Shown here in pieces: positions 1,148 through 33,072 of a stretch of DNA of 33,971 bases. Below the pieces are notes generated by a model that made no database searches, was not told the DNA's origin, and saw only the letters and a list, made by a program, of their open reading frames with translations. The DNA is from a virus, in IMG/VR virus record IMGVR_UViG_3300037847_004030, positions 1 through 33,971 of that record; one strand, 5' to 3'. Both the position numbers and the translations under genes were made by a program. Within the stretch, counting starts at the first letter, position 1, and each line of letters opens with the position of its first letter.

Positions 1148-2962
1148 ATGGCAGACCAAAATTATAAATTACGATTTGACTTTATTGCAAACAACACAAA
1201 ATTCAATAGTGCTATTGGTGTTTCAGAGGGTAAGTTAAAAAGATTTAGTTCTCAAATGACCAAAACTGGTCGTATGCTAAGTACAAGATTATCACTTCCA
1301 TTAGCTGCAGTTGGAACTTTAGCAATAAAACAAGCTGCCAATTTTGAAAAATTACAAACGACTTTAAATACTTTAACAGGATCTGCCGAGGAGGGTGCAA
1401 AAGCATTTGAAAGATTAGTACAATTTAGTGCAAAAACTCCTTTTCAACTTGGTGATTTAGTGCAAGTTAATAATACCCTTATGGGATTTGGATTAACTGC
1501 AAATCAAGCATTTAATAGCTTATCTATGCTTGGTGATATTGCAGGAATTGTTGGTGGTGATTTACAAAGTATAAGTATTGCATTTGGTCAAGCTGCTGCC
1601 GAGGGTAGAGTAATGACACGAGATTTAAGACAATTCATAAATAATGGTGTGCCTATATTAGACATTTTAGCGACATCTATGGGTGTTGCAAGAGGTGAGA
1701 TAATGGATATGGCTTCAGAGGGTAAGATAACCTTTGACATATTAAATAAAGCCTTTCAAGATGCTACAAGTGAGGGTGGTAAGTTTGAGGGTGGTATGCA
1801 AGTTTTAAGTCAAACACTTAATGGTTTATTTTCAACCTTAAAAGATAATGTAAATATTGCACTTGCTGAACTTGGTCAAGAAATTGCTGATGCTTTAAAT
1901 CTTCAAGAGGGTATTCCAAAACTAACTCAATCTATTGGTAGTTTAGTTGATGGTTTTAAAAATTTAGATGATAAGACACAAAGATTAATAATTGTTTTAG
2001 GAGGTGTTGGAGGTTTATTTCCTTTAATAGCAGTTTTTGTTGGAACAACTTTACCATTATTTTTAGCAGGTGTTTCAGCTATGGCTTCTCCAGTAATTAT
2101 TTTAACTGGGTTAATTGTTGGACTTACTGTAGCTTTAGAAAAATTAACTGATATTGATTTTACAAAGTTTTTTGGTCCTGGTGGTGCATTAGGTTTTGCA
2201 AAGTTTATAGGTCAAAGACAAGTTAATGAATTAATGGCAGGTGGTCGAGGTGCTGATGTACCATCTGGATTTATCGGTCCACTTGGTCCTGAACAAGATA
2301 GATTGCCTTTCTCATTAGTACAAGCACCTGGTACATTTGAAATTATTAAAGAAAAAGCAAATGACTTAAATGAAGTTTTAAGAGAAACTGTTGTTACAGT
2401 AAATGAAATTACTACAAGAGGATTTGTTCCTATGGTAAAAATATCTGCAAAAGTTCTTACAGAATTACCAAAAAAACTTGAACCAATCATAACTCAATTT
2501 GATTATTTTGCAATGCAATTAATACCTCAAATAGGTCAAGCAATTGTGCAAGGGTTTAATGCAATAGCACAAGGTGAAAATCCTTTAAAGAGAATTGGCA
2601 CTATATTAAAAGGTTTAGTCGCAAGATTACTTGCTGCTGCTGCTGCAGCTATGTTACTTGGTGCATTTTTAGGAGGTGCAGGTGGTGGTTCAAGATTACT
2701 AAAAAATTTAGGTGGTATAAAAGGTTTATTTACTTCATTCTCTGGAATAGAATTAGCAAGAGGGGGTATCATATCAGGACCAACAACTGCTCTTATTGGA
2801 GAATATCCTGGTGCAAGATCAAACCCAGAAGTAGTTGCACCTTTAAGTAAATTAAAAACAATGATTGGTGGTGGTGCTACACAAGGCGAGTTTGTATTAA
2901 GAGGTCAAGATTTAGTAGTGGCACTTCAAAGAGCTGAAAGAAATAGAAATAGATTTAAATAA
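1148..2962 (+). CDS. Tape measure protein
   Basis: A 604-residue protein that sets tail length and helps DNA pass into the host. Residues about 50-230 match the tape measure N-terminal domain: QAANFEKLQTTLNTLTGSAE, AKTPFQLGDL, GRVMTRDLRQFINNGVPILD and EGKITFDILNKAF. Long hydrophobic stretches follow at about 280-335 and 490-515 (RLLAAAAAAMLLGAFLGG), as expected for membrane-penetrating segments. The C-terminus has the common motif ARGGIISGPTTALIGE then PEVVAPLSKL. It is short for the family, which suggests a tail below roughly 100 nm by the usual length rule. Its stop overlaps the next start as TAATG. Confidence 0.93.
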   Translation: MADQNYKLRFDFIANNTKFNSAIGVSEGKLKRFSSQMTKTGRMLSTRLSLPLAAVGTLAIKQAANFEKLQTTLNTLTGSAEEGAKAFERLVQFSAKTPFQLGDLVQVNNTLMGFGLTANQAFNSLSMLGDIAGIVGGDLQSISIAFGQAAAEGRVMTRDLRQFINNGVPILDILATSMGVARGEIMDMASEGKITFDILNKAFQDATSEGGKFEGGMQVLSQTLNGLFSTLKDNVNIALAELGQEIADALNLQEGIPKLTQSIGSLVDGFKNLDDKTQRLIIVLGGVGGLFPLIAVFVGTTLPLFLAGVSAMASPVIILTGLIVGLTVALEKLTDIDFTKFFGPGGALGFAKFIGQRQVNELMAGGRGADVPSGFIGPLGPEQDRLPFSLVQAPGTFEIIKEKANDLNEVLRETVVTVNEITTRGFVPMVKISAKVLTELPKKLEPIITQFDYFAMQLIPQIGQAIVQGFNAIAQGENPLKRIGTILKGLVARLLAAAAAAMLLGAFLGGAGGGSRLLKNLGGIKGLFTSFSGIELARGGIISGPTTALIGEYPGARSNPEVVAPLSKLKTMIGGGATQGEFVLRGQDLVVALQRAERNRNRFK

Positions 2963-5900
2963 TGGCTTACGGTGTAAAATATGAACTTGATTTTTCAGAC
3001 ATCAAGGGAAATAAAAGAAGTGTAGAAATTCTTAAAAAAGATTATACAGGTGAAATATTTTCTATTGTAGGTACTGACAGTCCTGTGATTATTAAATACA
3101 CTAATGATGATGACTTCTATAATCCAATAATCGGTTCATCTTGTGTCTTAAATATCAAAACTACTGATACAATTACTTATGATGAATTTACAAACTTTGA
3201 TGAAAGAGAATATAAGGTTAGGGTAAACATAGGTGTAGATGATCCACAAGCAGATATTAATTCACCCCTTTGGGAACTTGCTGATACAAATTGGGAAGCA
3301 ACAGATTTTAACTGGGCAGCTTCAACTGTGTTTCAAGTTTATTGGGAGGGGTTTTTAGTTTCAGATACTTTCAGAGAAGCTATACAATCAAAACCCTTTG
3401 ATATAACATTAAGGGCAATAGATAATTTAGGTTCATTAGAAGCATATTTAGTTCCTGATGGTAATATAAACACTAATGCTGATGGAACTATTAAAACTGC
3501 TGCAGGTGAACAAGATAATATAGATACTGCATTTTATTATTTACACAAAATATTAGAACAAACTGGATTAGAGTTTGATATATATATTCAAAATAATATT
3601 AGAAGAACATTTGATGGTTTGATTGTTAGTCAAAACAGAAACCTTTTTCAAGATATAAGAATTAATGAGTTTTCATTAATGGACAATTTTGCAAAGAAAA
3701 ATGCAAAAGAAGTATTAGAGGAAATATTAAGAATTACAAATTCAAGAGTTTATCAAGCTAATGCTTCTTGGTATGTTGTTTCAAATAGTAATTATTATGA
3801 TGTAGCTATTGCAGGTCAATTAGGCGATTTTGACCAAAATCAACTTGCTGAAGTGCCAAGTGTTTCTACTAATGCAGTTACAAATAAAACAACAACAAGT
3901 GGAACACTTAATGGAACAATAGTTTCAGATAAAGGTTTACAAATTATTGAAAGAGGATTTTATTATGGTACAAGTCCAATTTATATACAAAATGAAAAAG
4001 AAGCATCAACAGATACATCAAGTAATTTTACTTTAAATATATCTAATTTAATTGAGGGTGAAACTTATTATATTCAAGCCTATGCAAAGAACAATATATT
4101 TTTAGAGGGGCTTGGAAATGTAGTACAATATATTCCTGGTGAAAGTGATGATGATGATGAAACTCCTATTAGACCTGTTGTGCAAATGCAAAATATAAAT
4201 CCTTACACAGTTGAAAATGATAAGATGTTATTTACAGGTCAATTCTCAAATGTAGGTCAAAGTAATGTTATTGAATATGGTTTTTATTTTGGAACTGATG
4301 CTAATAATTTTAACAACAATACTCAATATCCTATAGCAACAGGTGTAAATATTTCTGTTGCGACTGCATTTGCAGGTGATACATCAGCAGCACCTTTTAA
4401 TTTAACACTTGCTTCAGGACAACCATTTTACATAAATGCTTATGCTAAAAATTCACAAGGTGAGGGTGTAAGTGCAACTACACTACAATATACATGGAAT
4501 GCTTGGCAACTTCGTAAACAATCTGATAACTCAACACAAAGTGTGCCTTATACATCAGATTCAAGAGGTGATAATGTTTATTTATCTACTTCTTCAAGTT
4601 CATCTGATTGTTATACTATAATGGTTGGTCAATATTTAACAAGCTTAAGTGGACTTCCAACTATTGCAGGTGCTTGTGATGATGATACTACAGAACCTAC
4701 ACCATCAGTTGAAGAAACTTGTAAAGAAGTAACATTATATAGAAGTAGTACTGCTTTTAGTTTATGTTGTGAAGATCCAACATCAAGAACTGCTTACATA
4801 AATGGTGAATCATTTACAAGTAGCGATACAACAAAAGTATTTAATAATGATGCTTGTTCTGAAACATCACCAAATTCACCACTTCCTGCTCAATATTTAT
4901 CTGAAAATTTAGCACAATATAGATATTGGAATGGAACTGTATTAGGAAATGTAATTAATTGTCAAGACAATTCAGGTGTTGATGTGTGTGATCCTGATGT
5001 TTTAAATCCAAGTGGTTGGCTTGTTCAAAAAGATAATTCATTAGACAGAGTAAAGGTTGCATATAATTCAACTTATGGTATAGATCAAAGAGTAATAATT
5101 GATAGTGATTCTGAAAATTGTTATACAATTATTGAATCCTTTAGAGATGGTACAACAATAACAACACCAGAAATTAGTTCTACTTGTAATACTCAACCAC
5201 CAACTCCAACTCAACAATGTCCAACAATGACATTCTTTGCAAGATACTTATTATGTGGTGGAGATGAAATAAAAATTATGGGTAACAATGTAGATAATTT
5301 CCCTAATGTTATTAAAAAAGTAAGCACAAATGAATGTTGGAGTTTTATTGATAGAACAAGTGTACCAACAATTGATGATGAATTTAATTTAGGTTGTTTC
5401 CCAACAAATAAGTTTACAGTTAAAAATGGAATAGTAAAAGGTTTTCCAAGTTGTGATGATTGTTTAGGTGTATCTACAACTACACAAGTTGCAACAACAA
5501 CAACTTCTACAACACAGGCAATTTTTTATAGACAATATATCGAGATACAATCAAATTGTAGTGATGCTGACCAAATTTTAGAAGTATCAAATACTGTTAA
5601 TAGTTTTCCAAATGTTATTACAGATGGTCTTACTTGTTTTAGAAATCAAAATGCAGGTGGTCAAGGTCAAGATGGTGATGTAGATAATTATATTGGATTT
5701 AATAGTGGTACACTATCAACTGATTGTGCTTCTTGTAATCAATATATTTCAACTACAACAACACAAACACCAACAACCACACAAGCACCTTGTAAAGCGA
5801 TTTCAGCATCAGTTACAACAATAGCATTAAATGCTTGTTGTGGTGCAAAATCAACGACTATATATATAAATGCAAACAATATTTTACTTGCAAGTGTTAT

Positions 5901-6021
5901 ATATACAGATGCAGCTTGTACTACTGTTCTTCCTGCAGGTAATTTTATTAACACAGGTGGTCAATTATATTTTTGGACTGGTAATACACTTGTCGAACAA
6001 GATTGTCCACAGTGTCCATAA
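2962..6021 (+). CDS. Tail hub/adhesin with FN3-like and Cys-rich modules
   Basis: A 1019-residue protein directly after the tape measure gene. Residues 1-290 look like a baseplate hub domain (an EGFLVSDTFRE strand region, DNLGSLEAYLVPDG, an AFYYLHKILEQTG helix, FAKKNAKEVLEEILRI). Two FN3-like domains follow at about 300-395 and 405-510, each with a GFYYGT or GFYFGT motif. An acidic GESDDDDE linker lies between them. From about 510 the protein is built of repeated Cys-rich modules in the order III-I-III-II-II-I: type III carries NCYTI or DCYTI, type II carries NFPNVI or SFPNVI, type I carries a CC pair and YINGE or YINAN. Thr-rich linkers (VATTTTSTTQ; STTTTQTPTTTQ) join the last modules. Likely role: baseplate hub plus host-surface binding arm. 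The hub call is inferred from position. Confidence 0.65.
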   Translation: MAYGVKYELDFSDIKGNKRSVEILKKDYTGEIFSIVGTDSPVIIKYTNDDDFYNPIIGSSCVLNIKTTDTITYDEFTNFDEREYKVRVNIGVDDPQADINSPLWELADTNWEATDFNWAASTVFQVYWEGFLVSDTFREAIQSKPFDITLRAIDNLGSLEAYLVPDGNINTNADGTIKTAAGEQDNIDTAFYYLHKILEQTGLEFDIYIQNNIRRTFDGLIVSQNRNLFQDIRINEFSLMDNFAKKNAKEVLEEILRITNSRVYQANASWYVVSNSNYYDVAIAGQLGDFDQNQLAEVPSVSTNAVTNKTTTSGTLNGTIVSDKGLQIIERGFYYGTSPIYIQNEKEASTDTSSNFTLNISNLIEGETYYIQAYAKNNIFLEGLGNVVQYIPGESDDDDETPIRPVVQMQNINPYTVENDKMLFTGQFSNVGQSNVIEYGFYFGTDANNFNNNTQYPIATGVNISVATAFAGDTSAAPFNLTLASGQPFYINAYAKNSQGEGVSATTLQYTWNAWQLRKQSDNSTQSVPYTSDSRGDNVYLSTSSSSSDCYTIMVGQYLTSLSGLPTIAGACDDDTTEPTPSVEETCKEVTLYRSSTAFSLCCEDPTSRTAYINGESFTSSDTTKVFNNDACSETSPNSPLPAQYLSENLAQYRYWNGTVLGNVINCQDNSGVDVCDPDVLNPSGWLVQKDNSLDRVKVAYNSTYGIDQRVIIDSDSENCYTIIESFRDGTTITTPEISSTCNTQPPTPTQQCPTMTFFARYLLCGGDEIKIMGNNVDNFPNVIKKVSTNECWSFIDRTSVPTIDDEFNLGCFPTNKFTVKNGIVKGFPSCDDCLGVSTTTQVATTTTSTTQAIFYRQYIEIQSNCSDADQILEVSNTVNSFPNVITDGLTCFRNQNAGGQGQDGDVDNYIGFNSGTLSTDCASCNQYISTTTTQTPTTTQAPCKAISASVTTIALNACCGAKSTTIYINANNILLASVIYTDAACTTVLPAGNFINTGGQLYFWTGNTLVEQDCPQCP

Positions 6022-6929
6022 TGAGATATATTTGCGCACAACCTGCATCAATTTATTATTCTTGGCAAGTAGATACAATGATTCATAGTTTTATAAACAA
6101 TGGTATAAAACAAGAGCAAATAGATATTGTTTTTGCTGATAAACCAGAATATGAAAATTGTTGTTTTTATTTATTATCTAAATATCCAAAGGTTAATTTT
6201 TATTTTTATCCAGATTTAAGAAAAACAATAAAATATATTTCAAGCATAAGACCTCATATTCTTAAAAAACATTTTTATAGATATGCTGATTTATATAAAG
6301 GAACATTTTTATATCATGATTGCGATATAGTACTTACAAAACCTTTAGAACTTGATGGTTATGTATGTGGTTGTAATCCAACTTGTTATTTAAGCAATAC
6401 AATTAGCTATATTGGTCATAATTATATAAAATCTAAAGGTGAAGATGTTTTAAATTTAATGTGTAAAGTTGCAAATATTGATAAAGATATAGTAAAACAA
6501 AATCAAGATAATTCTGGTGGGTGTCAATATCTTCTGAAAAATATAGATTATAAATTTTGGGAGGAGGTTGAAATAGATTGCGAAAACTTATTTACAGAAG
6601 TTGTAAAATTAAATGTTAAGAAAAAAGCTAAAGACAAAAATTATCACGAGATACAAATTTGGTGTGCTGATATGTGGGCAGTGCTTTGGAATCTTTGGAA
6701 AAGAAATAGAGAAACAAAAATAATTGATGAGTTAAATTTTACTTGGGCAACACACGAAAGAGAGCAGTGGGGTAAATATGCAATATTTCATAATGCAGGA
6801 GTAAACAATGATAAAAATGCAGCTTTTTATAAAGCAAAGTATTTATCCAAAAAACCTCCAAAAAATTTAAAAATAAATCCAAGATTAGCTTCATACGAAT
6901 ATTATGAGTTAGTAAAACAAATATTGTAA
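6021..6929 (+). CDS. Putative GT-A type glycosyltransferase in the tail operon
   Basis: A 302-residue protein with an N-terminal alpha/beta region (IYYSWQVDTMIHSFINNG, QIDIVFADKPEYENC), a YADLYKGTFLYHDCDIVLTK segment with a DxD motif at D100-C-D102, and a late HNAGV at about residue 257. The helical stretch before a metal-binding DxD and the late His are typical of GT-A nucleotide-sugar transferases. The fold assignment is from motif pattern only. I chose ATG at 6021, which overlaps the adhesin stop as TAATG, over a TTG at 6003. Its coupling to the Thr-rich adhesin suggests that it could modify that protein. It has no signal peptide or membrane segment, so it should act in the cytoplasm. Confidence 0.55.
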   Translation: MRYICAQPASIYYSWQVDTMIHSFINNGIKQEQIDIVFADKPEYENCCFYLLSKYPKVNFYFYPDLRKTIKYISSIRPHILKKHFYRYADLYKGTFLYHDCDIVLTKPLELDGYVCGCNPTCYLSNTISYIGHNYIKSKGEDVLNLMCKVANIDKDIVKQNQDNSGGCQYLLKNIDYKFWEEVEIDCENLFTEVVKLNVKKKAKDKNYHEIQIWCADMWAVLWNLWKRNRETKIIDELNFTWATHEREQWGKYAIFHNAGVNNDKNAAFYKAKYLSKKPPKNLKINPRLASYEYYELVKQIL

Positions 6930-6938: not shown

Positions 6939-8222
6939 ATGGGAATTATTAGAGCAGAGCAAACAAGATTACTACAAGAAAATGGTACTGAAATAATTGA
7001 ATTTTTTGTTTATGATAAAAATGGTGATCCAAAATCACCACTTAATGAAACAAAAGATGTTTTAAAACAAATACCAAGTGTTTTAAGTCCAATAAATCAA
7101 GATTTAGAACTTGAATATTTACCACCAGTAAGAGATGTAATAAAAAAAACAAAAACAAATGCACTTCAACTTTTAAATAAAAATCCAAATTTTAGATACC
7201 AAAATTTCAATTGGAACATTACTTCATCTTTAGGTTCTGTTCAAATACCAAGTCAAATTTTAGCAGGTGTAAATCCAATTTCAGGTATTTATTGTTTATA
7301 TCAACCATCTATTCCTTTAACAGATAGTAAAACAACTCATTTAGTAAAAAACATTTTATCAGATACACCAATTGTAAGTGGTCGTGATATTCAGATAAGT
7401 TGGAACTATTATATCTTTACAGGTATTGGTGCAACTAATGTAAAACAATTTATAAGCATTGGTCTTGATTCTACAAATAATGGAAGTATTAATAAGATGT
7501 ATAATTTTGAAACTAATAAATTTGAAACTGGAACTTTTACAAATGATGAGTATTTTCAAAAAATAGATTACACAAATTTAGATCAATGGAGTAAATATAC
7601 AACAACAATACAAGCTAATTTAACTTCTACAGAAACAAGTCCTCATATAGAAGTAAAGTTGTTTCAAGTATCAGGATCTGAAGTACCATTTGGAAAAGTG
7701 TTTTTTGATGGTTTATCTATATCACAAAAAATATCTTCTACAACTAAAACTCACACAAGGAGGAGGGGTAATTTATTTAGAAATATTGGTGGCGAAATAA
7801 CTCTTGATGAAAATGAAAATGTAACTGGCGAATATATTCAAAAACAAACTTTCTTATCTAACGAAATCGATAAAAATAGCATTAATTATTTTCCAAACGA
7901 ATTTAGTAGAAAAGATAGACCTTTAAGTTTCTATTCTACAAACACCCTTGATAAAAATGTATTACAAGAAATTATTAATGATTATAGAAGTCCTTTAAAA
8001 AGATATGAGGGAACATTTTACAAAGATGATTCTGATGTAGTTCCTGTTTATTTTTATCACAAGCTATGGGTTAATTTTGGCACAACTGTACTTCAAGAAC
8101 CAGTTAGTGCTATTATTGATGAAATGGAGTTTGATGTTAAGCAAAATCAATATAGAATTGTTATGCACTTACCTAATCAAGATGATGATCAAGTTGCATT
8201 TGATTTATATAAATTTGAATAA
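6939..8222 (+). CDS. Tail/baseplate protein with jelly-roll-like middle domain
   Basis: A 427-residue protein at the end of the tail module. Residues about 75-260 look like a carbohydrate-binding jelly-roll: NFRYQNFNWNITSSLG at the start, then DLDQ/YTNLDQWSKYTTTIQ and GKVFFDGLSISQ at the end, the usual ligand-domain phrasing. The C-terminal 150 residues (TFLSNEIDKNSINYFPNE, LQEIINDYRSPLKRYEGTFY, EMEFDVKQNQYRIVMHL) resemble the end of phage tail hub proteins that follow a rotated baseplate domain. Together with the N-terminal domain of the gene at 2962 it may supply one split hub. Function is inferred from position and composition. Confidence 0.55.
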   Translation: MGIIRAEQTRLLQENGTEIIEFFVYDKNGDPKSPLNETKDVLKQIPSVLSPINQDLELEYLPPVRDVIKKTKTNALQLLNKNPNFRYQNFNWNITSSLGSVQIPSQILAGVNPISGIYCLYQPSIPLTDSKTTHLVKNILSDTPIVSGRDIQISWNYYIFTGIGATNVKQFISIGLDSTNNGSINKMYNFETNKFETGTFTNDEYFQKIDYTNLDQWSKYTTTIQANLTSTETSPHIEVKLFQVSGSEVPFGKVFFDGLSISQKISSTTKTHTRRRGNLFRNIGGEITLDENENVTGEYIQKQTFLSNEIDKNSINYFPNEFSRKDRPLSFYSTNTLDKNVLQEIINDYRSPLKRYEGTFYKDDSDVVPVYFYHKLWVNFGTTVLQEPVSAIIDEMEFDVKQNQYRIVMHLPNQDDDQVAFDLYKFE

Positions 8223-9672: not shown

Positions 9673-10438
9673 TTCTATTGAGGAGTATCATTCAAAGAAA
9701 TCAATATCAGCAAGTAGCTTAAAATACATAGCACAAACATCTGTGTTTCACTATATTAATAAGAAACCTATCGAGCAAACTAAATATATGATTAGGGGTA
9801 ATGCAGTACACACAATTTGTTACGAGGGTGTTGAAGAATTTAAAAAACAATATTTTGTTTTACCGAAACTTGATCTTCGTAAAAAAGATGACAAAGAACT
9901 TAAGGCAAAACTTTTTGAAAAAAATGTAGGTAAAATAGCTTTAGATGAAGAAGAAGATACAATTATAAGAGGTATTTATAAGAACTTTAATAGTAGTGAA
10001 AAAGTAAAAAAATGGATAAAGGGTAAAGTTGAGGTTTCTCATTATGGAACTTATCAAGGTATTGATGTAAGAGTTAGACCTGATTGTTTAGGTGAAGATT
10101 GGATTAGCGACATTAAAACTTGTCAAGATGCTTCACCTGAAAAATTTAATAGAGAAATAGAAAATCGTAAGTATCACCTACAAGCATATTTTTATTGCTT
10201 AATGTTAGGTATTGATCCATCAAGATTTCGTTTTATAGCTTGTGAAACTAATCACCCATTTGCAGTTGAGGTTTATAAGTTAGATCATGTTTTTATTGAA
10301 AATGCACAAGCAGATTTCGAAAGAGCATTTACTTTTTGGAAACTATATAAAGAAAAAGGTATTATTACTGGGTATCAATCGCAAGATTTTGACGAAGATG
10401 GTACGATAATTTTAAAAGGTTGGAAAAAAAGAAAATGA
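9641..10438 (+). CDS. PD-(D/E)XK exonuclease (RecE/DUF3799-like)
   Basis: A 265-residue nuclease. The N-terminus has SASSLKYIAQTSVFHYINKK followed by GNAVHTICYEG, typical of the RecB/YqaJ-like group. The active-site core is RPD148 ... D157-I-K159, followed by YHLQAYFYCL with the conserved Gln at about residue 181. Such enzymes resect DNA ends to make the single strands annealed by Erf; the Erf gene two places upstream makes this the likely partner. It ends in ATGA overlap with the next gene. Direction of resection and substrate cannot be read from sequence. Confidence 0.85.
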   Translation: MKIENLKIANDSIEEYHSKKSISASSLKYIAQTSVFHYINKKPIEQTKYMIRGNAVHTICYEGVEEFKKQYFVLPKLDLRKKDDKELKAKLFEKNVGKIALDEEEDTIIRGIYKNFNSSEKVKKWIKGKVEVSHYGTYQGIDVRVRPDCLGEDWISDIKTCQDASPEKFNREIENRKYHLQAYFYCLMLGIDPSRFRFIACETNHPFAVEVYKLDHVFIENAQADFERAFTFWKLYKEKGIITGYQSQDFDEDGTIILKGWKKRK

Positions 10439-11112
10439 AAGATTTAAGATTAGTAAGAAAAATAGTTAATAATTACTTTGAAATCAATATAAATAATAAA
10501 TCAAGAAAAAGAGATTTTGTTGATGCAAGAAGATTTTATTACCATTTATCAAGAGAATTTGTGCAAAATGCTACACTTGAAAAAATAGGTTCACTTGTGA
10601 ATCGAGATCATGCTTCTGTAAATTTTGGTATTAAAACATTGAACTCTTTTTTAGAATATGATAAAAACACTCAAAATAATTATTTAACTTTAAAACAAAT
10701 ATGTTTAAGTAAATTAGATGAGTTGGCAAATCCATACGAAAAATATTTAAGCAAAGAAGATAAACTTCAACATAGTGTTATGGAATATTTAAGTTTTCAG
10801 CACCCAGATATTTATGCAATACATTGTGCTAATGAGGGTAAAAGAAGTCCTTTTGAAAGATTTAAGTTTAAATATTTAGGTGGCAAAGCAGGTGTTCCAG
10901 ATATACTAATATTTAGATCAAATGGAGTTAAAAATGGTCTTGCCATAGAATTAAAAGTAGGCTATAATAAACCTACTGACAATCAGAAAGAAGCATTAGA
11001 AAGATTAAGAAAAGAAAATTGGGAGTGTCATTGGACAAATGACTATGATAAAACTATTGAAATTATAGACAAATATTTATCATTAAATGACACCACCGAC
11101 ACAACAGTTTAA
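10435..11112 (+). CDS. DnaA-domain-IV-like HTH fused to a VRR-NUC nuclease
   Basis: A 225-residue two-domain protein. Residues about 20-80 match the DnaA C-terminal DNA-binding domain: RKRDFVDARRFYYHLSREF, then LEKIGSLVNRDHASVNFGIK, where RDHASV (R57-V62) matches the DnaA signature RDHSTV. Residues about 105-215 match VRR-NUC: HSVMEYLSFQHP, GKAGVPD156ILIF, AIE172LK174VGYNKPTDNQ. VRR-NUC domains are PD-(D/E)XK nucleases acting on branched or flapped DNA. The fusion suggests a nuclease directed to a duplex site, perhaps the origin or recombination forks. I chose ATG 10435 (ATGA overlap) over a TTG at 10420. Domain calls are firm; the combined role is inferred. Confidence 0.8.
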   Translation: MKDLRLVRKIVNNYFEININNKSRKRDFVDARRFYYHLSREFVQNATLEKIGSLVNRDHASVNFGIKTLNSFLEYDKNTQNNYLTLKQICLSKLDELANPYEKYLSKEDKLQHSVMEYLSFQHPDIYAIHCANEGKRSPFERFKFKYLGGKAGVPDILIFRSNGVKNGLAIELKVGYNKPTDNQKEALERLRKENWECHWTNDYDKTIEIIDKYLSLNDTTDTTV

Positions 11113-27965: not shown

Positions 27966-28448
27966 ATGAAAGCAGTAAATAACAACGGAGAAATTACTTT
28001 TTATCAGTCAGTACCAAATTCATTTAGGTCATCAACAGGATTACATTATAATGTTCAAAATTGGTCTGAACAAGATATGAAAGACAATGGATTGTTTGAT
28101 GTAATTATAGAAGATGGTTTTGATAGTAGAATACACGATTTAGGTGAGATCTATTGGGATACAGAAGCTACTGTATTTAGAAAAGATAAGATTAATAAAA
28201 CTTGGTCGCAATCATTAACAGATTTAAAAGCACAACAAATTAACAATTTTAAAAGTCAAATTGGGAGTAAACTTGCTGAAACAGATTGGTATATAATTAG
28301 AAATGCAGATAGTGGTGCAGAAGTACCATCTGAAATTACAGATGCAAGAGCAGCATTAAGAACTCAATCTGACACAGTAGAAAATGAAATCAATGCTAAA
28401 ACTACTAAAGCAGCAGTTATGAGTTATGATTTCCCAAACATTGACTAA
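27966..28448 (+). CDS. Fibre-associated protein, possible fibre assembly chaperone
   Basis: A 160-residue protein between two fibre genes. The C-terminal half, with LAETDWYIIRNADSGAEVPS and ITDARAALRTQSDTVENEI, follows the pattern of short tail fibre assembly proteins: a TDW motif, a Pro-containing turn and an R-x2-L helix. The N-terminal half has ITFYQSVPNSFR, YNVQNWSEQDM and an acidic strand region. It ends in TAATG overlap with the giant fibre gene, as fits a chaperone or connector for that fibre. Function inferred. Confidence 0.55.
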   Translation: MKAVNNNGEITFYQSVPNSFRSSTGLHYNVQNWSEQDMKDNGLFDVIIEDGFDSRIHDLGEIYWDTEATVFRKDKINKTWSQSLTDLKAQQINNFKSQIGSKLAETDWYIIRNADSGAEVPSEITDARAALRTQSDTVENEINAKTTKAAVMSYDFPNID

Positions 28449-31400
28449 TGGCAGTAAACAAAAGACTTATAGGTGCAGGTGCTACAGGAAGTTCTGCATT
28501 AGTACCGAGTGATAATTTTAAAGTAATAAAATACACAGGTACTGGTGCTTCTCGTTCAGTTTCAGTCGGATTTCAACCTGATTTTGTTTGGATTAAACAT
28601 ATAGGTGGAACAGGTTCACATTCGTGGACAGATTCTTCAAGAGGTAACAATTTAGTTTTACAATCAAATGAAACTTCAACAGAAGCAAGTGGTCAAATAA
28701 CTTTAGATAGTGATGGATTTACAATTGGTAATGATAATGCTTTAAGAAATACTAATGGAGAGGAATATGTAGCTTGGTGTTGGAAAGCAAACGGAGGAAC
28801 TACAAGCAGCAATTCTGATGGCAGTATTACATCAACAGTACAAGCTAATGCAGATTTAGGATTTAGCATAGTTCTTTATCAGGGAACTCAATCAAGTGCT
28901 ACTGTCGGACATGGTTTAGGAATTGCGCCAAAATTAGTAATTACAAAATCGAGAGGTACTGCTCAAGGGTGGCCGACTTTAATTGTTGGTTCAGATGGAA
29001 CTGTATATGGTGGTACCAGATTAAATGAATCAAATGCTAACAGTTCAGGTAATGGTACAGGTTTCTTTCAAAATGCTGCACCTACAACAAGTGTTTTTTC
29101 ATTAGGTGCAAGTGATGAAAGTAATCCAAATGGAACGAATACAATTGCATATTGTTTCGCAGATGTTGATGGTTATCAAAAAATTGGTTCATATACAGGA
29201 ACAGGAAGTGCAAGTGATAGACCTATTATTGAAACAGGATTTGAACCTGCTTTTGTAATGATAAAAAATGTAAGTTCTACGGGTTCTTGGATGATACACG
29301 ATAATGCAAGAAACACAACAAACCCAAGAGATAAATATTTAAGAGCAGATGCAAATAATGCAGAGGGATCTGCTGCTGAATTTGGATTAGATTTTTTGAG
29401 TAATGGTTTTCAAATAGGACCAACAACTAATTATCATTGGAACACAAGTGGTAATACATATATTTATTTGGCAGTAGCTGCAGATCCTGACACAGAAGCA
29501 CCAACACTTGCAAGTAGTTTTAATGCGGAACTTTATACAGGTAATGCAACTAATAATAATGTAAATATAGGTTTTGATTCAGGTTTAACTTGGATTAAAA
29601 ATAGAACAGATGCAGGTTCTTATCATATTTTATTTGATGTAGTTAGAGGTTTAAATCAAGTAATCCATTCAGGTCGTGACCAGGCACAGCAAGGAAGTAG
29701 TAATAATTTTAGTTATGAGAATGGTGTTTTATCGTTTGATGGTTCAACAACTTGGGGAAATAAATTAGCAAGTGATTATGTCGCCTGGAATTGGAAAGCT
29801 AATGATAATGAACCTACGATTTTACCTAATACAGAATTATCATCTTTAATATCTAAATATAAATTTGAAGATAATGCAAATGACAGTTATGGAAACAACA
29901 ATGGAACTGCTTCTAATTTATCTTATGTTTCAGGGAAGTTTGGTAATGCAGCAGATTTTAATGGAACAAGTAGTAAAATATTATATCCACAAGCTGCACC
30001 TTTTAATGATTCTAATACTATTTTAGCAATTAGTGTTTGGGTTAAACTTGATGCTGCTTCAGATGAGTTTGTGGTAATGAGTGCATCTTCAACATCTGAC
30101 CAAAGTGATTATGGTCTTTTAATTGTTGGTGGGAATAGACCAGGTAGAGTGTTTTTAAGTGATGCACCAAGTAATGCTAATGAATATCAAGCAACTTTTG
30201 GTTCAAGTAATAATACAAATTGGAATCATTATGTATGGCAATTGAGTGCAAGTGGTGGAATTGAATTATGGTATAATGGCACAAAACAAACGAGAACAAC
30301 ATTAGTTTCGAGTGGTTCTATGGATGAAACAAAATGGTTTGGTGATCTAACTTATGCAACAAGTGTTCAATGGGCAACTGGTATTAACAGAGTTGTAACA
30401 ACTGCATATTCTGATGGTTCAATCGATCAAATGAGATTATTTAATGCTGAATTAACATCTTCTGAAATAAGTGATTTATACAATGAAGGTCTTGAAGCAT
30501 TAGTTAGTGCAAATGCTAATGCAGGATTTAGTATAGTTAAATTTGATGGTGGTGGTTCTGTAAATAATGTACCACATGGATTATCAGCTGCACCTGAAAT
30601 GATTTTATACAAAAGATTAGATTCAGCAGGTGATTGGCAGGTTTATCATATATCTATTGGTAATGGTAATAAATTAACTTTAAATTCTTCTGCTGCATCT
30701 TCAAGTACTTCAAGATTTAATAGTACAAGTCCTACTGCAACAAATTTTACATTTAACAGTTCAAGTTATACAGGTAATATAATTGCCTATTGTTTTCATT
30801 CTGTTACAGGATACAGCAAGTTTGGAAGTTATGCAGGTAATGGAAGCACTAATGCTATAACAACAGGATTTAAACCTGACTTTGTATTTATCAAAGTTTA
30901 CGACAATACTGATCAATGGGTTATAATAGATAGTCGTAGAGGTGGCACAAAAATATTACAACCAAATTTAAATGCTGCTGAAAGTACAGAATCAGGTGTA
31001 AATGTAAGTTTTACATCAACAGGATTTACACACACAGGTAGTGGTGGTGGAATTGGTCAAGTAAATTCAAGTGGAAGTAATTATATATATTGGGCAGTAG
31101 CTAAAAATGTACCAAGCAATACAACTCTTGCAGATAGCTTTAATGTAACACGATATAGTGGAAATGGTGGAACAAAATCGATTACAGGTCTTGGTTTTAG
31201 ACCTGACTTTTTGTGGATAAAAAACAGAACATCATCTGCACAGGGGCATATAATTCAAGACACTTTAAGAGCTGCAGGTTCTACTAAAGTTTTATTTACT
31301 TCAGAAAGTTCAGCAGAGGGTACTTATGGTCAATATGGTCATACATCTACTTTTGATTCTGATGGATTTACTGTTGTAAATGGTTCAGGAGAACACACAA

Positions 31401-31837
31401 ATACTTCTGCGGAAAATTATGTTGCCTGGTGTTGGAAAGCAGGTAATAATTGGGAATCTAATTTAGATGGTTCAATTCCAAGTGTGGTAAATGCAAATAC
31501 TGCAAATGGATTCAGTATAATTAAATATACAGGTACATCTGCAAGTAGCCAATCAGTTGGACACGGTTTAAATTCTACTCCTGAACTTGTAATGATTAAA
31601 AATTTAGATGCTTCAGAGGGTTGGATTGTTTGGGCGACAGGTTTTGGAACATCAAATTGGTTAGAATTAAATTCAAATGTAGCTTATAATCAAGATAATG
31701 CAGGTTGGGGTGGTACACACAGTTCTACAGTTGTAAACTTACAGAATGGTGGTGCAGCTCGTTCAAGTGCTAATGGAGTAGATTACATAGCTTATTGTTG
31801 GCATTCAGTATCAGGGTTTAGCAAGATTGGATTTTAA
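28448..31837 (+). CDS. Giant repeat fibre with LamG-like insert, 5' part of a split gene
   Basis: A 1129-residue fibre of three repeated modules. Module A runs from a YTG/GFxPDFVWIK start to YVAWCWKA; B from GFSIVKYTGT, VGHGL to IAYCxHSVxGYSKIG; C from SYTGNGS, PDFVFIK to YIYxAVA. The order is A-B-C, A, LamG-like insert, B-C, A-B. The insert at about 465-680 has LISKYKFEDNANDSYGNNNG, VSGKFGNAADFNG, WNHYVWQL and IDQMRLFNAELTSSEISDLY, a concanavalin-like fold often binding sugars. The modules match the DUF7483-type repeats of marine phages. The frame stops right after GFSKIG, where module C should begin; its remainder is in the next gene. Confidence 0.82.
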   Translation: MAVNKRLIGAGATGSSALVPSDNFKVIKYTGTGASRSVSVGFQPDFVWIKHIGGTGSHSWTDSSRGNNLVLQSNETSTEASGQITLDSDGFTIGNDNALRNTNGEEYVAWCWKANGGTTSSNSDGSITSTVQANADLGFSIVLYQGTQSSATVGHGLGIAPKLVITKSRGTAQGWPTLIVGSDGTVYGGTRLNESNANSSGNGTGFFQNAAPTTSVFSLGASDESNPNGTNTIAYCFADVDGYQKIGSYTGTGSASDRPIIETGFEPAFVMIKNVSSTGSWMIHDNARNTTNPRDKYLRADANNAEGSAAEFGLDFLSNGFQIGPTTNYHWNTSGNTYIYLAVAADPDTEAPTLASSFNAELYTGNATNNNVNIGFDSGLTWIKNRTDAGSYHILFDVVRGLNQVIHSGRDQAQQGSSNNFSYENGVLSFDGSTTWGNKLASDYVAWNWKANDNEPTILPNTELSSLISKYKFEDNANDSYGNNNGTASNLSYVSGKFGNAADFNGTSSKILYPQAAPFNDSNTILAISVWVKLDAASDEFVVMSASSTSDQSDYGLLIVGGNRPGRVFLSDAPSNANEYQATFGSSNNTNWNHYVWQLSASGGIELWYNGTKQTRTTLVSSGSMDETKWFGDLTYATSVQWATGINRVVTTAYSDGSIDQMRLFNAELTSSEISDLYNEGLEALVSANANAGFSIVKFDGGGSVNNVPHGLSAAPEMILYKRLDSAGDWQVYHISIGNGNKLTLNSSAASSSTSRFNSTSPTATNFTFNSSSYTGNIIAYCFHSVTGYSKFGSYAGNGSTNAITTGFKPDFVFIKVYDNTDQWVIIDSRRGGTKILQPNLNAAESTESGVNVSFTSTGFTHTGSGGGIGQVNSSGSNYIYWAVAKNVPSNTTLADSFNVTRYSGNGGTKSITGLGFRPDFLWIKNRTSSAQGHIIQDTLRAAGSTKVLFTSESSAEGTYGQYGHTSTFDSDGFTVVNGSGEHTNTSAENYVAWCWKAGNNWESNLDGSIPSVVNANTANGFSIIKYTGTSASSQSVGHGLNSTPELVMIKNLDASEGWIVWATGFGTSNWLELNSNVAYNQDNAGWGGTHSSTVVNLQNGGAARSSANGVDYIAYCWHSVSGFSKIGF

Positions 31838-31869
31838 CAAAAAGATATGACACAACAGATAACTGGAGA

Positions 31870-33072
31870 ATGTATGATAGTGTAAGACAAAATGCACAAC
31901 CATTTGATGAAATATTGTATCCGAATTTAGGAAATGCAGAAGAAGATAACGATACTTTTGTTACAGGCACAACATCTACAGGTTTTACATTAGGTTCAGG
32001 AAATGGTTCTAATGCATCAGGGGGAAGTTATTTATATATGGCATTAAAACAAAATGCTACATTGAGCACAGAAAAAGCAAAAAGTTTTAATGTAACTACA
32101 TATACTGGGAATGGTAGTACAAATAGTATTACAGGGGTAGGATTTAGACCTGACTTTGTATGGTTAAAAGATAGAGATAGCACTAATTGGCATACACTTT
32201 TTGATAATGTTAGAGGTCCTGCTGCCAGAATTCATTCAAATTCAAGTAATGCACAAGATATGACAGGTACAACCTCATTAACTTCATTTGATTCTGATGG
32301 ATTTAGTTTAGGAAGTAATGCTAATGAAAATACAAACACAAATGATTATGTAGCTTGGTCGTGGAAAGCAGGTAATAACTGGGTAAACAATAATGATGGT
32401 AGTGTTTCTTCTATTGTTAATTATAATACAGGTAATAAATTTTCAATAGTTCGTTATACAGGAACAGGTTCAGCTACAACCGTAGGACATGGACTTGGAA
32501 CTTCACCAACTTTTATTATTGGAAAAACATTAAACAGTTCAGCTAAATGGAGAGTATATCATTCAGGCTTAGGTGGTGCGGCTAATTATCTTAATTTAAA
32601 TGATACTTTTGCTAAAGGTACATCTTCAAATGTTTGGAATAGTACTGCACCAACATCATCTGTATTTAGTGTTGGATCTGACCTGTCGCCAAACGGTGAA
32701 AGTATGATAGCTTATGTCTGGGCAGATTGTGATGGTTTAAGTAAGTTTGGAACCTATACAGGTAATGGTTCTTCATCAGGAACAGTTGTTGAACCTGGAT
32801 TTTCACCAGATTTCATTATAGTAAGAAGACATGATGGTACAAGTGATTGGGGTATGTTTGATAGTAGTAGAAGTGGATCCTATTATCAAAAAGGTTTAAA
32901 AGCAAATACTAATGATTCTGAATTTGCAGAAACAAATATTAATAGTTTTTGTGAATTTTTAGCTGTAGGTCATGGTGATGCAGCTAATGGTGGTTTTAGG
33001 TTTAGAGATAGTGGTTCGCAATATAATGTGTCAAGCGCAAGTTATATATATATAGCATTTAAAATAAATTAA
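31870..33072 (+). CDS. Giant repeat fibre, 3' part of a split gene
   Basis: A 400-residue protein that continues the repeat series: the rest of module C (open in this frame from about 31831: TKRYDTTDNWRMYDSVRQ, later SYLYMALKQN), then a full A (FRPDFVWLKDRDS, YVAWSWKAG), B (VGHGLGTSP, MIAYVWADCDGLSKFG) and C (FSPDFIIVRRHDGT, SYIYIAFKIN). The first 20-23 residues expected for the first C are absent. Its ATG at 31870 lies mid-module, so it may not be a true start. Most likely this is the C-terminus of the same fibre as 28448-31837, separated by a short deletion with frame change, real or from assembly. Confidence 0.72.
   Translation: MYDSVRQNAQPFDEILYPNLGNAEEDNDTFVTGTTSTGFTLGSGNGSNASGGSYLYMALKQNATLSTEKAKSFNVTTYTGNGSTNSITGVGFRPDFVWLKDRDSTNWHTLFDNVRGPAARIHSNSSNAQDMTGTTSLTSFDSDGFSLGSNANENTNTNDYVAWSWKAGNNWVNNNDGSVSSIVNYNTGNKFSIVRYTGTGSATTVGHGLGTSPTFIIGKTLNSSAKWRVYHSGLGGAANYLNLNDTFAKGTSSNVWNSTAPTSSVFSVGSDLSPNGESMIAYVWADCDGLSKFGTYTGNGSSSGTVVEPGFSPDFIIVRRHDGTSDWGMFDSSRSGSYYQKGLKANTNDSEFAETNINSFCEFLAVGHGDAANGGFRFRDSGSQYNVSSASYIYIAFKIN

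Follow-up and report, generated by a model that had tools for sequence, protein, structure and literature searches.

What does a predicted sugar-transferring enzyme do among the tail genes of a phage? This question is raised by the glycosyltransferase (GT) gene of the IMG/VR virus record IMGVR_UViG_3300037847_004030, whose full stretch of 33,971 bases (the window) carries a complete-looking siphophage gene set. The GT gene overlaps the end of a gene encoding a tail hub/adhesin-like protein with threonine (Thr)-rich linkers. Very probably, the enzyme adds O-linked sugars to poly-Thr tracts in virion proteins of the phage itself; in this phage the tracts are the linkers of the hub. The original prediction, made from the sequence of the window, had described a DxD-containing, GT-A-like gene that begins in the stop codon of a Thr-rich adhesin inside the tail operon. 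The enzyme, the overlap, the linkers and the location were all found as described, and the term adhesin is discussed below. The features of the pair are as follows.

2962..6021, + strand: tail hub/adhesin-like protein of 1019 amino acids (aa), the proposed acceptor, whose Thr-rich linkers lie in the C-terminal half
5473..5523, + strand: Thr-rich linker 1 (STTTQVATTTTSTTQAI), hub residues about 838-854, predicted to be disordered
5743..5787, + strand: Thr-rich linker 2 (YISTTTTQTPTTTQA), hub residues about 928-942, predicted to be disordered
6019..6023, + strand: TAATG stop/start overlap of the acceptor gene and the GT gene
6021..6929, + strand: GT with a predicted GT-A fold, 302 aa, phrog_4417 family, proposed to carry out poly-Thr O-glycosylation
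6318..6326, + strand: DxD motif, D100-C-D102 (residues 100-102), the expected metal/nucleotide-sugar site, with D100 and D102 invariant
6789..6833, + strand: HNAG...K motif, with H257, G260 and K271 invariant in 50 family representatives

The open reading frame (ORF) of the GT starts with the ATG at 6021 and ends with its stop at 6929. The overlap is of one base, the last base of the hub TAA stop being the A of the GT ATG.

Fold, motifs and family of the enzyme

The AlphaFold2 model of the GT, based on an alignment of 45 sequences, has a pLDDT of 95 and a pTM of 0.91. At E<=0.001 a Foldseek search with this model returned 276 matches in the PDB, of which 50 were listed, every one a glycosyltransferase structure; among them are the UGGT catalytic domain, LgtC, XXYLT1, LARGE1, COLGALT1 and the blood-group enzymes. 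The GT-A fold was thereby confirmed at the level of the predicted structure. The DxD motif is invariant in the 45 relatives and in the 50 representatives (clustered at 70% identity), in which W15, D65, P78, Q212 and W214 are also invariant. The HNAG...K motif is one that we take to resemble the HxxG/K motif of GT8-type enzymes. The natural reading of the model is that the product would be an active nucleotide-sugar enzyme. Retaining enzymes predominate among the fold neighbours listed, and for this reason the formation of an alpha linkage may be guessed.

The GT matches the family phrog_4417, annotated as 'unknown function', at E=1.7e-57 over residues 1-301, which is a full-length profile match. 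Homologues include orf14 of Lactococcus phage 1706, orf45 of bIL285 and gp51 of phiFL1A. GT-A enzymes of the GT8, GT24 and GT6 types (LgtC, the UGGT catalytic domain, XXYLT1, LARGE1 and the blood-group transferases) share the overall fold in Foldseek, and their DxD is kept in the window GT, whereas the identity is ~10%, the TM-score is about 0.4-0.54 and the Pfam and PDB sequence searches gave no match. None of the 45 family members has a significant match in Pfam, which holds models for CAZy families such as GT8, GT24, GT2 and GT25, and the NCBIfam and PDB sequence searches with the GT yielded no family. A possible likeness to plant Hyp/Ser (hydroxyproline/serine) glycosyltransferases was dropped as unsupported, there being no Pfam match. 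The sequence family of the enzyme is thus phrog_4417, for which a fold and an acceptor are newly proposed in the present analysis.

Many phage GTs modify DNA (PMC12619734), and the enzyme could accordingly be a DNA glucosyltransferase whose targets are hypermodified bases in the phage DNA. Among the closest solved folds listed are enzymes modifying proteins, lipids and polysaccharides, the gene lies within the structural operon, and the family as a whole is coupled to poly-Thr virion proteins, all of which makes this role extremely improbable.

The proposed acceptor

A protein was counted as poly-Thr when it contained 5 consecutive Thr or 6 Thr in 9 residues, and no ORF of the window other than the hub passed this test. 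A weaker Thr-rich stretch is present in the hub near residue 307. In the AlphaFold2 model both linkers have a pLDDT <50 and lie between beta-rich parts. The whole hub model is weak (pLDDT 63, pTM 0.27); because of this low confidence it was used to note the disorder of the linkers, and the fold comparison was not based on it. The hub has no significant match in Pfam or PHROGs. The name hub/adhesin rests on gene position, since neither database identifies the protein; its place after the tape measure gene assigns it to the tail module. The adhesin of the original prediction was therefore upheld as a tail-module protein, but as a label given by position.

Coupling of the enzyme family to poly-Thr proteins

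The GT was detected by tblastn in 74 phage records, mainly of Lactobacillus, Enterococcus, Staphylococcus and Lactococcus phages together with one Chryseobacterium phage, and it is present in hundreds of IMG/VR records. The gene lies directly 3' of the major tail protein gene in Lactococcus phage 1706 and Enterococcus phage phiFL1A, and 3' of the capsid protein gene in bIL285 and CHPC836. As it is found after different structural genes, it moves among them and is tied to none.

Among the closest 80 contigs, a Thr-rich protein is usually encoded just 5' of the GT. The locus counts that follow cover the sequence available around each GT; many of the contigs are fragments and the loci are related. 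When the GTs were clustered at 70% identity, a poly-Thr protein was found somewhere in the examined locus for 44 of 49 clusters. Its gene occupies position -1 relative to the GT in 33/49 clusters and position +1 in 0/48. An earlier, stricter rule (8 or more Thr per 20 residues), applied to about 170 loci, placed poly-Thr at -1 in 66% and at +1 in 0.6%. This threshold was dropped because short C-terminal tails such as TTTTTTSHG-stop were missed. The coupling of the GT to Thr-linker proteins suggested in the original prediction is thus found across the family. Neither of the two outcomes named there as fatal to the idea was observed: the predicted fold is GT-A, and regular occurrence of the GT apart from Thr-tract structural proteins was not seen. 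Three apparent exceptions (bIL285, L230 and L234, where L numbers denote loci) carry the tag on the tail-tube protein or on a small protein elsewhere in the locus.

In Firmicutes phages (Lactococcus, Lactobacillus, Enterococcus, Staphylococcus) the tag is usually C-terminal on the major tail protein, the capsid protein or both, for example TTTTTTSHA-stop. The major tail proteins of 1706 and phiFL1A end in ...GVTTTTTTTTTTHHD (tail-tube tail TTTTTTTTTTHHD) and ...TTTTTSTTTTTTSSTTTTTTTQASSK, respectively. The tail-tube proteins of bIL285 and vipetofem end in ...SKTTTTTTTTTRHD (tail TTTTTTTTTRHD) and ...TTTTTTTTTAAGK, respectively, and Lactobacillus phage proteins end in ...TTTTTTSHG or ...TTTTTSHA. 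The original prediction had placed the sugar on a Thr/Cys-rich tail arm. Thr tracts on tail proteins were indeed found, but they are poly-Thr rather than Thr/Cys-rich, and in Firmicutes phages they are mostly C-terminal, on the major tail protein, the major capsid protein or both.

Two further arrangements were observed among these loci. At L206:4620-4997 a 125-aa tail protein (34% Thr) precedes the GT and is itself preceded by a second protein with a poly-Thr tail, which places two tagged proteins in a row in one phage. In L270, a relative of the Lactobacillus phages, the GT occurs in two frames, with matches 65 and 628 nucleotides (nt) after the major capsid protein, and the capsid C-terminus is shifted; either a sequencing error is present, or the GT and the capsid C-terminus have decayed together.

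Presence of the tag and presence of the enzyme

In the hub family, all tested untruncated hubs (about 1000 aa) have poly-Thr linkers, and the GT gene overlaps the hub gene or lies <=4 nt downstream wherever the flank is covered. Shorter hub homologues have no GT downstream, poly-Thr was found in 0/12 of those tested, and the GT is absent from all 13 of their records that were searched whole. The same pattern is seen in two tail-tube families. In the phiFL1A family the GT accompanies 3/3 proteins with the tail and 0/11 without it, and one homologue that lacks both tail and GT is still 87% identical in the core. In the bIL285 family the corresponding counts are 11/11 and 0/35. Trees of both families were built with additional loci included; in these, every change of the tag coincides with a change of the GT, and none of the 51 rows is off-diagonal. 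The joint switches number two per family on the best tree and one on strongly supported branches.

The poly-Thr tract might be a plain spacer or neutral repeat to which the GT is linked merely through a shared cassette. In phiFL-type phages the DNA similarity between genomes with and without the GT breaks off where the tail-tube core ends and restarts near the end of the GT gene. This break spans the poly-Thr tail and the GT and marks them as one inserted cassette, so that the two do travel as a single segment; many poly-Thr phage proteins also occur without a phrog_4417 GT. Against this explanation, Lactobacillus phages bear the same C-terminal tag on capsid and tail tube, which are unrelated proteins; the GT adjoins one of these, and the other lies about 3 kb away, for which linkage alone is an insufficient explanation. 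A tagged protein at this distance from the GT (2.7-2.9 kb) is also found in Lactococcus and other phages. The Thr tracts are encoded by mixed ACN codons rather than pure repeats, making simple repeat slippage unlikely, and the tag is shared by proteins that are unrelated to one another and by a peptide encoded in bacteria. A neutral spacer is, on this evidence, very unlikely.

A different extension seems to be borne by the tail-tube C-terminus in L247 and L250, which have no GT, at the site where the poly-Thr tail sits; it is perhaps frameshifted. Read by eye, the L250 C-terminus and the L247 region may represent Ig-like or Fn3-like decoration domains, in which case GT-less relatives would carry a protein domain at the cassette site where the GT phages carry the proposed glycosylated tag.

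The reverse test consisted of a scan for eight consecutive Thr codons, made independently of the GT. Where the T8 tract was in frame, 12/84 loci had the GT, usually at a distance of 2-25 nt on the downstream side; where no in-frame tract was present, the count was 0/36. Poly-Thr therefore does not imply a phrog_4417 GT.

Several points weigh against the proposed O-glycosylation. Poly-Thr proteins without a phrog_4417 GT are common. The number of independent tag/GT switches is small, many loci being related, and for this reason the tracking of the tag by the enzyme is strong yet statistically incomplete. The poly-Thr rule was loosened once the Firmicutes tails had been seen. Five of the 49 clusters (L052, L060, L069, L240 and L242) have no poly-Thr protein by the rule; in L052 a Thr/Pro linker (APPTPTTAPPTTAPPTTT) is present that falls below it, and L240 and L242 come from bacterial assemblies.

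Other enzymes have been observed near poly-Thr proteins. Poly-Thr tails without a phrog_4417 GT are present on several structural proteins (tail tube, scaffold-like or decoration-like) in L441 (major tail protein at 10034-10612), L329, L352 and L395. A GT4 enzyme is encoded nearby in L441 (2369-3628), and adjoining GT25-like and TOD1/MUCI70-like proteins are encoded at L371 6670-8519 in a phage with a poly-Thr protein. The occurrence of different GTs near such proteins is a hint that, in other phages, this tag may be modified by enzymes of other GT families.

Bacterial chromosomal relatives

The GT family is rare outside phages. It was found in 2/396 Bacteroidota genomes drawn evenly, one of which is the starting genome, and in 35/401 genomes from the taxonomic family of one Sphingobacterium match. 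In the loci from this taxonomic family (L241:5609-5857 and L480-L499), the chromosomal relatives are longer proteins than the phage GT. A C39-peptidase ABC exporter is encoded in 15/23 chromosomal loci, often with small GG-leader peptides that are Cys-rich, often Thr-rich and in some cases built around poly-Thr cores. The peptide just 5' of the GT relative in L241 contains ...LGGVSWTTTTTTSSVPV..., and that of L496 contains ...LGGDGPTTPDPGDPITTTTTV.... These Thr-rich peptides suggest, as an independent hint, that the GT family acts on Thr-rich peptide, and a class of glycosylated exported peptides is possible at these loci.

The chromosomal loci also bear on whether the GT modifies the host cell-wall or surface polysaccharide, causing a superinfection block or altered adsorption, with the Thr-rich tail neighbour being incidental. 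GT2 genes are present near some of the chromosomal relatives, and phage GTs that alter the host serotype are known (PMC12619734). The exporter and GG-leader peptides speak against a role at the host surface, as does the predicted enzyme, whose compact fold of 302 aa carries no extra segment. The gene preceding the GT encodes a capsid, tail-tube or hub protein depending on the phage, and the presence of the GT tracks poly-Thr and not one particular neighbour. Modification of the host surface is accordingly judged unlikely.

Comparison with known systems

Bacteroidota possess a general O-glycosylation that acts on exported proteins at the host's own motif, and on which a phage enzyme working in the cytoplasm would not depend.

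In the mycobacteriophages Che8, Corndog and Myrna, GTs encoded by the phage add sugar to the virion at the C-termini of capsid and tail-tube proteins, and the GTs named are Che8 gp110 and Corndog gp38 (Freeman et al. 2023, as cited in PMC12363180 and PMC12619734). A phage-encoded GT acting on the phage's own capsid and tail-tube C-termini is the same scheme as is proposed for the phrog_4417 GT. The enzymes themselves differ: Che8 gp108-110 showed no relation to the GT family profile (E 0.3-0.5 for gp108 and gp110, no match listed for gp109). The GT genes of Che8 lie far from the structural genes, whereas the phrog_4417 GT lies among them, and a poly-Thr tail is missing from the capsid and tail proteins of Che8. 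The Che8-type acceptor is a C-terminus, whereas the acceptor proposed in the window is an internal linker of the hub. In the Firmicutes relatives, poly-Thr C-termini are present that would be candidate sites for such sugar.

A search of a collection of openly licensed papers, from which most subscription journals are absent, turned up no description of poly-Thr tails in phages or of their pairing with a GT. The original prediction knew of no established system of this kind. This holds for the poly-Thr/GT pair, which appears to be new, but not for self-glycosylation of phage virions, which is already known from mycobacteriophages (PMC12363180 and PMC12619734).

Surrounding genes of the window

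The pair follows the tape measure gene, and the other genes considered are as follows.

1-390: major tail protein gene
1148-2962: tape measure gene
6939-8222: gene for a 427-aa protein, located after the GT

At 28448-33072, DUF7483 repeats occur as four and two stretches on two neighbouring ORFs that are split at about 31837-31870. The two ORFs are possibly one large fibre protein cut by a frameshift or an assembly error.

Proposed mechanism and significance

In the proposed mechanism, the soluble GT-A enzyme would use a host nucleotide sugar bound via the DxD motif and a metal. Translation of hub and GT is probably coupled at the TAATG, so that enzyme and acceptor would be produced together in the host cytoplasm. 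Transfer of the sugar to the Thr tracts, which would be exposed and disordered, would take place while the tail is being assembled or earlier. The resulting tail hub would bear clustered O-linked sugars on disordered linkers, forming a small mucin-like stalk, and on tail-tube or capsid proteins a glycosylated C-terminal tail would coat the particle. The modification may render the linkers protease-resistant and extended or stiff, provide shielding, or tune receptor or cell-surface contact.

The pairing of GT and threonine tag in many unrelated phages points to a common and unnoticed way of sugar-coating particles. With somewhat more confidence than doubt, we regard the pair as a portable module that is common to phages of at least two bacterial phyla. 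Its two parts would be a dedicated GT and a poly-Thr tag, either a linker or a C-terminal tail, and the protein bearing the tag may be a capsid, tail-tube or hub protein. Such a module would be related to bacterial GTs modifying Thr-rich exported peptides, and would be independently matched by other GT families with poly-Thr proteins.

If the proposed O-glycosylation is true, glycosylated virions would be far commoner than the few mycobacteriophages in which they have been demonstrated, and virion glycosylation would be predictable from sequence through a poly-Thr tail together with a phrog_4417 GT. The striking poly-Thr tails that capsid and tail-tube proteins carry would be explained, and an unassigned family present in well-studied Lactococcus and Enterococcus phages would acquire a function. 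The tag and enzyme pair would also represent a simple tool for cytoplasmic O-glycosylation.

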